From: a virus
Reading direction: 5' to 3' (one strand)
IMG/VR virus record: IMGVR_UViG_3300021962_011589
Span: 1 to 21,494 of that record
Length of the DNA stretch: 21,494 nucleotides
Shown here piece after piece: positions 5,264-20,147 of this stretch. The stretch's first letter is position 1. Each line of letters starts with the position of its first letter. The notes beneath the pieces were generated by a model that worked only from the letters and a program-made list of their open reading frames with translations, made no database searches and had not been told where the DNA came from. The translations under genes were made by a program, and so were the position numbers.

Positions 5264-5851
5264 ATGAGCGTTCTTGCCGACTGGGAAATCAAGCAACTGG
5301 CCGAAGAAAAGGGGATGATCGAGCCCTTTTTTGATCGCCTGGTCAGCCATCAAGATGGACGGAAACTTTTAAGTTATGGTCTTGGTTCTTATGGCTATGA
5401 CATTCGCCTGTCCCCTAAACAATGTTTAATTTTTGGAAAAGTCCAGGCTGGAGATTGCGATCCCAAGGCTTTTGACCCTGATATTCTTAAGCCTGCCGAG
5501 TTACTGGAAGACGAGCGTGGTCAATATTTTTTGTTGCCTCCATACGGCTACTGCCTGGGGGTGGCGCAAGAACGGCTTAAGTTGCCACGCGATGTTACTG
5601 TCGTTGCGGTTGGTAAATCAACCTATGCACGGTCCGGTATTTTGGTGAATATCACCCCAGCGGAGAGTGGTTGGGAGGGTTATTTAACACTTGAGATTAG
5701 TAACTGTACCGGCTTATTTAATCGTATTTATGCTAACGAAGGAATTACACAACTTCTTTTTTATCGCGGAGAGCCGTGTCAAGTAAGCTATCAAGATCGT
5801 CAAGGTAAATACCAGGACCAACCGAATGAAGTTGTGTTTTCTCAGGTTTAA
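5264..5851 (+). CDS. dcd: dCTP deaminase
   Basis: The 195-residue length is close to that of bacterial Dcd (~190). The family deaminates dCTP to dUTP, feeding dTTP synthesis. Visible signatures are the N-terminal MSVLADWEIKQL start, SYGLGSYGYDIRL at about 37-49 (the usual 'GxxxYDlRlg' strand), AVGKSTYARSGI at about 115-126 (the nucleotide-binding G(K/R)SSxAR loop, with S119 and R123), VNITPAESGWEGYLTLEISN at about 128-147 with the expected catalytic glutamate E144, and IYANEGITQLLF at about 155-166. The C-terminus resembles the Tyr/Gln lid region. It is an intact, probably active cytosolic enzyme. It follows the methyltransferase-like gene by 33 bp, and its stop overlaps the stop of the convergent gene. 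Confidence 0.9.
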   Translation: MSVLADWEIKQLAEEKGMIEPFFDRLVSHQDGRKLLSYGLGSYGYDIRLSPKQCLIFGKVQAGDCDPKAFDPDILKPAELLEDERGQYFLLPPYGYCLGVAQERLKLPRDVTVVAVGKSTYARSGILVNITPAESGWEGYLTLEISNCTGLFNRIYANEGITQLLFYRGEPCQVSYQDRQGKYQDQPNEVVFSQV

Positions 5852-6263: not shown

Positions 6264-6608
6264 ATGCACGCATCTGCATTTTTGGATGCCTTTGTTCAGG
6301 ACGAAGTGAAATGCCGTTGTCTTGATCAAGAAGAAGATTTTGGGCAACCACTCGCAAACGAAGAAAATGATGTACCTTTATATGACATGTATAACAGGGG
6401 CTTAGCAGTATGCGAGCAGGGAATGGAGAGGAACCCACTCAACATCGAGGGGATGGACCGGCCCGGCTTGACGGGTTACATTCCGTCAGCGGAGGAGGGT
6501 ATGGCGATGGGGGCAAGTCCGAAGCCCAAGGCCCTGGTACTAGAGCTGGAAGGACCAACGGAGGAGATGAAGGAAGAATCCCTCAAGCGCCGTGGTTTGC
6601 GCCGGTAG
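6264..6608 (+). CDS. Hypothetical acidic phage protein, 114 residues
   Basis: The start at 6264 follows AAGG nine bases upstream, a usable ribosome binding site. No family is recognised. The protein is acidic at the N-terminus (DEVKCRCLDQEEDFG), has a Met/Gly/Pro-rich centre (GMDRPGLTGYIPSAEEGMAM) and ends in a charged helix (EEMKEESLKRRGLRR). A long ORF in the +2 frame overlaps its second half, but there the other frame encodes Gly/Arg/Asp-rich sequence typical of a shadow translation, so I take this frame as the real one. It lies 11 bp before the DUF3310 gene and probably forms a two-gene operon with it. Confidence 0.6.
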   Translation: MHASAFLDAFVQDEVKCRCLDQEEDFGQPLANEENDVPLYDMYNRGLAVCEQGMERNPLNIEGMDRPGLTGYIPSAEEGMAMGASPKPKALVLELEGPTEEMKEESLKRRGLRR

Positions 6609-6619
6609 AAGACGAAGAA

Positions 6620-6931
6620 ATGCTTGATTGCCCTGGTGGCGTCTGCCCTGTACCTTGGGCAGTCAAAGACAGCTCTGTATTCACAATTCAAGAACGTCCT
6701 CGGTTACAAGAAGACGTTGTCAACCACCCGTCACACTACACGGATGGCGGCATCGAAACAATTGAAGCCATTGAAGCGGCTTTAACCAACGAAGAATTTC
6801 GTGGTTACTGCAAAGGAAACTGTATGAAATATATTTGGAGGGAGCGCCACAAGGGCGGAACCGAGTCCCTGAAAAAGGCGCAGTGGTACTTAAATCGTCT
6901 TATTGAGCTGGACGAAACTCAGAACGGCTGA
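6620..6931 (+). CDS. DUF3310 family protein (phage SaV-like)
   Basis: With ATG 6620 (MLDCPGGVCPVPW) the product has 103 residues. Residues about 34-95 match the DUF3310 family common in phages: VNHPSHYTDGGIETIEAIEA, then CKGNCMKYIWRERHKGG and a final helix LKKAQWYLNRLIEL. The family is small and of uncertain biochemistry, often annotated as nucleotide-kinase-like near DNA-metabolism genes. The frame is open further upstream to an ATG at 6410, but those extra ~70 residues look like non-coding translation of the preceding gene. A Cys pair (C4, C9) near the start could bind metal. The C-terminal 13 bp overlap the convergent NblA-like gene. Confidence 0.8.
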   Translation: MLDCPGGVCPVPWAVKDSSVFTIQERPRLQEDVVNHPSHYTDGGIETIEAIEAALTNEEFRGYCKGNCMKYIWRERHKGGTESLKKAQWYLNRLIELDETQNG

Positions 6932-7206
6932 AGCTCGTCTTCATCATCGTCTTCCGCATATGCGCATGCAGCCGCGAGTTCTGCGAGTTCCAGATCGGTG
7001 GGGATATCAAAATCAATATCAATATTTTCATCTGCCATCAGCGTTTTAATGGCATGCCACTCCATTAAACGTTGGTGGTAAAGGTTGAGGAGTGCGGCGT
7101 AGAGCTCATCCCAGGTGAGTTCTTGCGCTACCAACTCAGCCTTGCGCATTGAAAATTGAAGCTCTAATGGTAGCTGAAACTCAGTGGGTTCCGTTGTGTG
7201 CTCCAT
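6919..7206 (-). CDS. nblA: NblA-like phycobilisome degradation protein
   Basis: The product has 95 residues. Residues about 12-58 (LPLELQFSMRK, then TWDELYAALLNLYHQRLMEW) follow the NblA pattern of cyanobacteria: an N-terminal LExxFxxR helix, a polar turn, then a second helix with the L-x-x-LY-x-Q/R core and a following (A/Y)xxxL segment. NblA is a small helical adaptor that binds phycobiliproteins and recruits Clp protease to dismantle phycobilisomes; copies are known in some cyanophages. This protein is longer than usual (~60 residues) and carries a second helical, strongly acidic tail (LELAELAAACAYAEDDDEDE). It lies 27 bp after the endolysin gene on the same strand, which would fit late expression. 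The match is by pattern, not by alignment software, so an unrelated two-helix protein remains possible. Confidence 0.6.
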   Translation of the reverse strand: MEHTTEPTEFQLPLELQFSMRKAELVAQELTWDELYAALLNLYHQRLMEWHAIKTLMADENIDIDFDIPTDLELAELAAACAYAEDDDEDELQPF

Positions 7207-7233
7207 TGAAACTATCGCTTCATTTCAATTATT

Positions 7234-7899
7234 CTACGCCCAACCTGTAAATATTGCGTCAAGCTCTTCCGGAAGAAAAGAAGACCACGAGTCCCCTTCA
7301 ATGTCAAAGTCATTGGCAAACTGCGACAAAAGATAAGGGCTGATTTGTTCTTCCAGGGTGCGAATTGCTTTTACTTGGTGGGGAGCCGCCGTGTAATTTC
7401 GGAACGCAGCAAGCAATACCTCGGTGGAAGCCCACTGATTTGTGTCGACTTCCTGAAGAAATAAATCAACCTCCTCTCTGCGCCTGTCGATAAGACCACC
7501 TATGACTTTGTGTTCAGCATCAAAGATCCAACAAGACATTCCCTGGGTGGCGCCAAAAAAATCTTCTTTATCAATGCAGTCAACAATATCGCTGTAAAGA
7601 AAAGGTTCCCACCCAATGGAATGAATAAAAGATATCAAGGCTTGACGCATGAAGTCATCAAGGCCCAAGTTTAGTTTTAATAACTGAGTATCGATTAAGT
7701 GCACCTCGTGGAACAAATATTCCAATGCTTTCTCTTTTGTACAGCACTGTCCTTGTTTTACCGGAGATCCGTCAGGGTAAAACTGTGTGCCGTAACCAAA
7801 AGTGTAAGGTTCTTTTCCTGTTACGGGATCAGCGTATGCCTTTTCGCTAAAGCCTTCATACTTACAGATCAAACTAATCGCACAAGAAATGTCGGACAT
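7234..7899 (-). CDS. Endolysin, GH24 phage lysozyme
   Basis: I chose ATG 7899 (MSDISCAISLICKYEG), giving 221 residues; an upstream TTG at 7923 is unlikely. The N-terminal domain has the T4-lysozyme-type catalytic triad: E15 in KYEGF, D24 in AYADPVTG and T33 in YTFGYGT. The E-to-D spacing of nine matches T4 (E11, D20). RQALISFIHSIGWEPF at about 83-98 is the usual central helix pair, followed by the RRREE helix typical of GH24. The enzyme cleaves the glycan of peptidoglycan. Residues about 150-221 form an extra helical, acidic C-terminal extension not found in the basic ~165-residue enzyme. No signal peptide is clear, so release would need a holin. Confidence 0.85.
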   Translation of the reverse strand: MSDISCAISLICKYEGFSEKAYADPVTGKEPYTFGYGTQFYPDGSPVKQGQCCTKEKALEYLFHEVHLIDTQLLKLNLGLDDFMRQALISFIHSIGWEPFLYSDIVDCIDKEDFFGATQGMSCWIFDAEHKVIGGLIDRRREEVDLFLQEVDTNQWASTEVLLAAFRNYTAAPHQVKAIRTLEEQISPYLLSQFANDFDIEGDSWSSFLPEELDAIFTGWA

Positions 7900-7934
7900 G
7901 GGGGCAATACTTATTACCCCCAATCATACACAAA

Positions 7935-18977: not shown

Positions 18978-20147
18978 TCAGGCGATTGTGCCGTCGTCTT
19001 GAACAAAGCTGTAGGCTGTGGTCACGAAGTCCTTGTTCAGGATCTCGAAGCCAGCGTACAGTTGCCAAATCAAGATGATGAAGCGGCTGAAGTCGTCGTT
19101 GTTGTTGATGAGCACTTGAGCGTTCGGACCACCGATGCCCACGCCCACAGCCTGAGGACCAAAGAAGAAGCCTTGAGCCACTTCTTTGGAGGCGTAAGAA
19201 GAACCGCCATCAAACGAAGCAGAAACGTTCTTGGAGGGGAAGTTGGTGGACTCGTAGAACTTCACGCCTTCAAACTGAACGCCGGTGGGCATCACGGGTT
19301 CGCCAGCCAGGAAATAGGCTTGACCGGCCTGGGGGCCCATGTAGAAGCTGGCGTTGTTAGGCATCATGGGGTTGCCCGCCATGTACATGCCTTGACCAGG
19401 ATTGCCGCTATAACGAGCAATTTCGCGGAAGTCAGCATCACGACGCAGGTGCATCATGAAAGTAGGATCGCAAATGCAGCGATACAGACCATCAGCGAAG
19501 GTGGGAACGTTGCGCTTACGCAGGTCCTTAACAACAGTCAGCAGGTCAGTCGAAACATGGAACTGCTGAACTTCGTTCTGATATTCAGTGGCTGTGTAAG
19601 AAACACGGTTGGAAGAATCTTTGGTCTTACCGCCAGCAAAATAGTAACCGCCTTGAGTGCCAGAAGCAGCACCGTTTGCATCGGCTTTAGCGAGTTCGTC
19701 CAGGAACACGCGATCGCGCCAACGGCGATAGTCGTCGAGCAGAGTCAGCGAACCAATGCTCTGGTGGAACATGTTCAGGTTGCCGGTGTCCAGCAGTAAA
19801 CGCTGGGCAGTCACCAGGGTTTCACGAGCAATCTTGAAGGTGCTGGGTTGGGTCGGATCGCCCGGGTCGGCAGGACCGGTGTATTCCTTAAGCACCACCA
19901 GGACTTTCTCCTTGGTGATGTTACGGCTGTTAGCGGTACCGATGGTTTGGTCGGCAATACGCTCACGGCTGTCCTTGGTACCAGGAGTACCCCAGAACTT
20001 GTAGCGATCAAGCTGAACAGTTTGGCCGGGTTGACGAGTAAAGTCGTGAACAACCACAGGCTCTACGGCCATTTCTGCAATGTATGCAGGGTGGGGGCGG
20101 TAGAGTTCCGCGCCCAGAATCTTAGGAAAGTCGTTATCAATGAACAC
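18978..20147 (-). CDS. Probable major capsid protein (N4-gp56-like)
   Basis: The 389-residue product starts at GTG 20147 behind an excellent GGAGG. The N-terminal MFIDNDFPKILGAELYRPHP region leads into a long helix-and-strand part (TFKIARETLVTAQRLLLDTG). RNVPTFADGLYRCICDPTFM and LRRDADFREIARYSG at about 212-246 match the HK97-fold capsid words '..l..h.P....lr.d..f..'. Downstream VMPTGVQFEGVKFYESTNFP resembles the strand-rich capsid P-domain segment. It recalls the N4-gp56 capsid family by these words and by length. It sits just before the decoration-type gene and after the scaffold-like genes, and its codons are strongly GC-biased and uniform, as expected of the most abundant virion protein. 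The capsid call is firmer than the family name. Confidence 0.75.
   Translation of the reverse strand: MFIDNDFPKILGAELYRPHPAYIAEMAVEPVVVHDFTRQPGQTVQLDRYKFWGTPGTKDSRERIADQTIGTANSRNITKEKVLVVLKEYTGPADPGDPTQPSTFKIARETLVTAQRLLLDTGNLNMFHQSIGSLTLLDDYRRWRDRVFLDELAKADANGAASGTQGGYYFAGGKTKDSSNRVSYTATEYQNEVQQFHVSTDLLTVVKDLRKRNVPTFADGLYRCICDPTFMMHLRRDADFREIARYSGNPGQGMYMAGNPMMPNNASFYMGPQAGQAYFLAGEPVMPTGVQFEGVKFYESTNFPSKNVSASFDGGSSYASKEVAQGFFFGPQAVGVGIGGPNAQVLINNNDDFSRFIILIWQLYAGFEILNKDFVTTAYSFVQDDGTIA

Follow-up and report, generated by a model that had tools for sequence, protein, structure and literature searches.

The window analysed here, a 21,494-nt stretch of viral DNA (positions 1 to 21,494 of IMG/VR virus record IMGVR_UViG_3300021962_011589), carries a minus-strand gene at 6919..7206 whose homology to nblA is well supported by sequence comparison, the case being decided by the protein family as a whole, whereas the single sequence is suggestive. 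Among the sampled S-EIV1-like cyanophage contigs, the gene is core, and its place directly behind the lysozyme gene does not vary. We consider it probable, with a probability of about 0.65, that its product is a phage-encoded adaptor for phycobilisome degradation that is made late in infection. The gene was located from the list of open reading frames (ORFs) together with the profile evidence. It starts with an ATG at 7206 and encodes 95 residues (MEHTTEPTEFQLPLELQFSMRKAELVAQELTWDELYAALLNLYHQRLMEWHAIKTLMADENIDIDFDIPTDLELAELAAACAYAEDDDEDELQPF). A plus-strand reading of the 6919-7206 ORF was ruled out, since stops close the frame.

Directly upstream of nblA, on the same minus strand, lies a GH24 lysozyme (endolysin) gene at 7234..7923 (Pfam Phage_lysozyme, 1.4e-15; PHROG endolysin, 8.8e-23), and an intergenic gap of 27 bp (7207..7233, minus strand) separates the lysozyme stop from the nblA start. 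The nblA gene is the final gene of a minus-strand block of capsid, virion and lysis genes, which also encodes the major capsid protein (18978-20147), an M23-peptidase-like protein and an HNH nuclease. The coordinates thus bear out both the spacing and the location in a lysis/virion segment that had been noticed in a sequence-only reading of this DNA. In a simple scan, no minus-strand terminator-like site was found between lysozyme and nblA, and the sole such site on that strand, at 6782-6765, lies beyond nblA. On the opposite strand, a DUF3310 gene (6410..6931, plus) converges with nblA, the two ORFs overlapping tail to tail by 13 bp, and a DUF3310 relative is found downstream of nblA on the opposite strand in related loci too. 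Further downstream lies a dCTP deaminase gene (5264-5851, plus; Pfam, 1.9e-24), which is retained in most relatives. The DUF3310 domain lies in residues 104-162 of the 6410-6931 ORF, suggesting that its true start is probably further downstream; this ORF also overlaps a plus-strand ORF at 6264-6608 in a different frame. Elsewhere in the window, a minus-strand gene at 755-2998 encodes a 747-residue protein of degenerate repeats (e.g., GVFTSQLSGAVITGDT), which is probably a tail fibre or spike. These repeats, too diverged at the DNA level, were not detected by Tandem Repeats Finder, and the many opposite-strand ORFs across the gene are mirror artefacts.

Among cultured phages, Synechococcus phage S-EIV1 is the nearest; it infects a Synechococcus. 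Its ortholog of the window gene, AHV82245.1 (KJ410740.1, 73902-74222), follows the lysozyme gene and is annotated as "hypothetical protein". Within the gene block, the two phages match at 69.7% on the nucleotide level across 700 bp, and the order around lysozyme, nblA, DUF3310 and dCTP deaminase is common to both. The window and its relatives therefore belong to the S-EIV1 cyanophage lineage. More than 400 relatives were found in one scan of IMG/VR and more than 570 among the matches listed in a second. Contigs were picked by their lysozyme or major capsid protein genes, which avoids selection by nblA itself. Among the lysozyme-selected contigs, nblA is the next gene in all 79 that have room for it, at a gap of 18-34 bp, and the 80th contig ends. 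Among the capsid-selected contigs, nblA is present in 15 of 18, and in 15/15 of those running past lysozyme; the three without it break off short of, within or immediately past the lysozyme gene. Wherever a sampled contig extends far enough, the gene is thus present, each time behind lysozyme, and it is on this ground that we regard it as core. Nine loci seemingly without an upstream lysozyme proved to be an artefact of stop-to-stop ORFs, the lysozyme being present. Homologues are not confined to phages of hosts lacking phycobilisomes, since the sole cultured relative infects a Synechococcus, a genus that carries phycobilisomes. Genes for CpeT, ferredoxin-dependent bilin reductase and psbA are absent from 15 long relatives. 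One 126-kb contig (G007, IMGVR_UViG_3300042503_000838; locus L261) carries two types of NblA, at 36586-36714 and 50024-50164, one of the S-EIV1 type and one of the T7-like cyanopodovirus type. This contig may be chimeric, joining two phage genomes, and nothing is therefore concluded from its second NblA.

The window protein by itself scores 16.5-17.4 bits (E 0.012 at 16.5 bits) against the Pfam NblA family (PF04485), under the curated cut-off of 25 bits, and DUF4030 scores marginally better on this single sequence. Several orthologs at the same gene position (G005, G008, G009, G310 and G313) exceed the cut-off, so the orthologous group straddles it. The Pfam cut-off for the NblA match anticipated by the sequence-only reading is thus reached by some orthologs and not by the window sequence on its own. 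All 36 relatives that were scanned match Pfam NblA (best 5.9e-6), with competing families at 0.001 or worse; DUF4030 and PHF12_MRG_bd were rejected as identities, since they match weakly and, taken over the family, fall far short of NblA. No family for the nblA-like protein was found in PHROGs or NCBIfam. In the PDB, the crystal NblA 1OJH is the sole match of the window protein at E up to 10 (E 0.59), and it ranks first when the phage family profile is searched against the whole database (E 0.001).

Searches in both directions agree with this assignment. When the phage profile was run against 292 cyanobacterial genomes, it gave 18 matches, 17 of them at coordinates with Pfam NblA. The 18th (G127:C149) is also found by an NblA model built from cyanobacterial sequences only, so that in these genomes the phage profile selects NblA genes and nothing else. 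Conversely, among 27,601 ORFs from the fetched loci, the cellular-only model recognises the phage protein in 180/181 loci (E 5.6e-8 to 1e-3); the single locus missed holds a truncated fragment without the first 42 residues, and the one further phage ORF that the model catches is also an NblA, of a different type. Against this model, the best of 20,000 shuffles of the window protein reaches 14.5 bits and the protein itself 21.4, which argues for an NblA-like core beyond chance. Profile-profile alignment (hhalign) joins the phage family and cellular NblA without gaps over residues 7-60, with a probability of 97.3% and E 2.3e-11. The core, which is about 26% identical to cellular NblA, retains seven positions that are identical in all aligned phage and cellular sequences (L14, Q17, F18, R21, L39, L42 and Y43). 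At the position of Anabaena NblA Lys53, which we take to be important for phycobilisome binding, the phage family has Ala, Glu, Asp or Thr. A search of GTDB genome contigs with short peptide patterns found no close cellular homologs. Together, the relatives, the 1OJH match, the reciprocal searches and hhalign bear out the NblA-type identity that was first proposed from the letters of the window.

The core (residues 7-60; 7027..7188, minus) is predicted to fold as the helix hairpin expected of NblA. In the AlphaFold2 model, which is of a monomer, helices 14-28 and 32-59 are placed with high confidence (pLDDT about 90-97 in the core model), and next come a third helix (70-86), less confidently predicted, and a disordered terminus; the model thus gives the two-helix core suggested earlier and no other fold. 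Foldseek gave no significant match for the full model in the PDB or BFVD, or for the core model in the PDB, which is uninformative because short helical hairpins carry little signal. The protein is longer than the roughly 60 residues typical of cellular NblA because of its C-terminal extension (residues 61-95; 6922..7026, minus), and small size is typical of the cellular members rather than a defining trait of the domain. The extension comprises a strongly conserved segment, (D/E)xxDxPTxxEL.EL, to which the predicted helix 70-86 belongs, and a disordered acidic end that closes with PF, a terminus shared by 67 of the 78 distinct proteins with this motif. The acidic extension of about 35 residues pointed out in the sequence-only reading is real and conserved, but it is strongly acidic only in its last 12-15 residues or so; by medians, the last 20 residues are 45% D/E and contain no K/R. 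The pN/pS ratio is 0.14 in the core and 0.22 in the extension (residues 58-78), showing that the gene is under purifying selection. The cellular NblAs that were aligned, of 58-66 residues, are without the added helix and acidic tail, which by this comparison are conserved in the phages and phage-specific.

In cyanobacteria, NblA binds phycobiliproteins and ClpC, which brings the antenna to the Clp protease (PMC7966870; PMC7760959), and expression of other phage nblA genes in cyanobacteria is reported to cause phycobilin loss (PMC9602691). The earlier statement that NblA triggers phycobilisome breakdown and is known in some cyanophages agrees with these reports (PMC7966870, PMC9602691). By analogy, the phage NblA would be a small helical adaptor that docks on the phycobiliproteins of the infected cyanobacterium and passes them to the host ClpC-ClpP protease; it presumably dimerises as a four-helix bundle and binds both the phycobilisome and ClpC. 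Its synthesis most likely falls late, alongside that of the virion and lysis proteins, a reasonable inference from its genomic position, because the place behind lysozyme is fixed in the lineage. Dismantling of the antenna during particle assembly might then benefit the phage through the amino acids set free and the reduced uptake of light. The most likely role of the conserved third helix and acidic tail is to adjust how the protein binds its target or how Clp deals with this adaptor. Phycobilisome binding of NblA is placed at the C-terminus (PMC7760959), and an effect of the extension on docking or Clp handling is plausible because it starts at the phycobilisome-contacting end of cellular NblA.

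A more ambitious form of this proposal, which we put forward tentatively and judge to be on the unlikely side, holds that late, lysis-linked demolition of the antenna is lineage-wide and built in, in place of an optional auxiliary gene that acts early, and that the extra helix and tail add a property which host NblA lacks, namely a new mode of docking or an ability of the adaptor to escape when Clp degrades the cargo, possibly in hosts that are rich in phycobilisomes but have no recognisable NblA. Among the cyanobacterial genomes, NblA was not detected in 16 small ones (2.1-3.7 Mb; G148, G184, G198, G210, G214, G230, G234, G236, G248, G266, G275, G279, G281, G283, G297 and G300) with 8-12 phycobiliprotein genes each, in which the best E value was 0.21 with Pfam and 0.034 with a cyanopodovirus-type NblA query. 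Judged by their sizes, these are probably picocyanobacteria with a divergent or missing nblA, and picocyanobacteria are the likely hosts of S-EIV1-like phages. A divergent nblA-like gene has been reported in Synechococcus WH8102 (PMC7439483), and non-detection is therefore not to be read as absence. If the hosts truly lack NblA, the phage would supply a function missing from its host.

The conserved, phage-specific extension, and the many surface positions of the core that differ from cellular NblA, would also suit an NblA-derived protein with a new target, in which the hairpin is kept for Clp recruitment and the added helix and acidic tail steer a different host or phage protein to or from the protease. 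However, the family invariants of NblA are retained, and the cultured host belongs to a genus with phycobilisomes, so we regard this reading as unlikely. The protein might instead protect the antenna, as a decoy that keeps the dimer surface and not the full adaptor activity, and that partners host NblA or covers its docking site, so that bleaching is blocked and light harvesting is kept through a long infection. The docking end has diverged, the Lys53 position is not kept, and the bulky extension sits on the target-binding end. The latent period of S-EIV1 exceeds 7 days (PMC8790148), which could favour keeping the antenna and, together with the change at Lys53, leaves room for such a role. Nevertheless, the position behind lysozyme suggests late action, when protection would be of little use, and the phage NblAs that have been tested degrade the antenna (PMC9602691); this role is quite improbable. 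It is very improbable that the protein is no NblA at all but a small helical accessory lysis or virion protein of convergent similarity. Its gene adjoins lysozyme, weak matches to short helical proteins can be spurious (DUF4030 matches weakly too) and fold searches were empty, but the profile searches are specific in both directions, 36/36 members match and the alignment runs ungapped across the whole NblA domain.

Phage nblA has so far been regarded as a scattered, host-derived auxiliary gene; in the present data it has the look of a core gene, shared across a widespread lineage of cyanophages and without annotation in the cultured isolate. Should the protein be active, S-EIV1-like phages in many aquatic samples would demolish the host antenna at a late stage of infection. 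With S-EIV1 in culture and an established complementation test, the idea can be put to a direct test, and the conserved tail gives access to the question of how protease adaptors select their cargo and, perhaps, outlast it. Nishimura 2017 (PMC5332604) lists no nblA for the S-EIV1 group. Literature naming both nblA and S-EIV1 leaves them unconnected in the portions available, and prior recognition is possible (Nadel 2019, Chenard 2015).

Compared with cellular NblA (PF04485; Anabaena 1OJH), the phage protein shares the ungapped two-helix core, but it has 95 residues instead of about 58-66, adds a helix and an acidic tail, and does not conserve the Lys53 position. Its closest counterpart, S-EIV1 AHV82245.1, is about 61-66% identical, sits in the same place after lysozyme and has the same kind of extension, with a longer acidic tail. 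Phage NblA has been described in Ma-LMM01-like phages, PaV-LD, marine cyanopodoviruses and some cyanomyoviruses (PMC5332604, PMC9602691); what is new here is the extension, the link of the gene's position to lysis and the fixation throughout the lineage. The nblA genes of the Ma-LMM01-type Microcystis phages and PaV-LD are likewise phage-borne and associated with phycobilin loss upon infection or expression (PMC9602691, PMC4103541). A tblastn search of phage records with Anabaena NblA gave nothing relevant and did not recover these freshwater phage genes. The Ma-LMM01 gene lies in a nucleotide-metabolism region and is transcribed early (PMC4103541), whereas the window gene lies behind lysozyme, a contrast drawn by description. 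The nblA genes of marine T7-like cyanopodoviruses and of cyanomyoviruses are distant cyanophage relatives (PMC9602691; L261-type matches). The podovirus copies found lie at annotated exonuclease genes, and NblA of the L261 type bears its extension at the N-terminus, in contrast to the C-terminal extension of the window protein.
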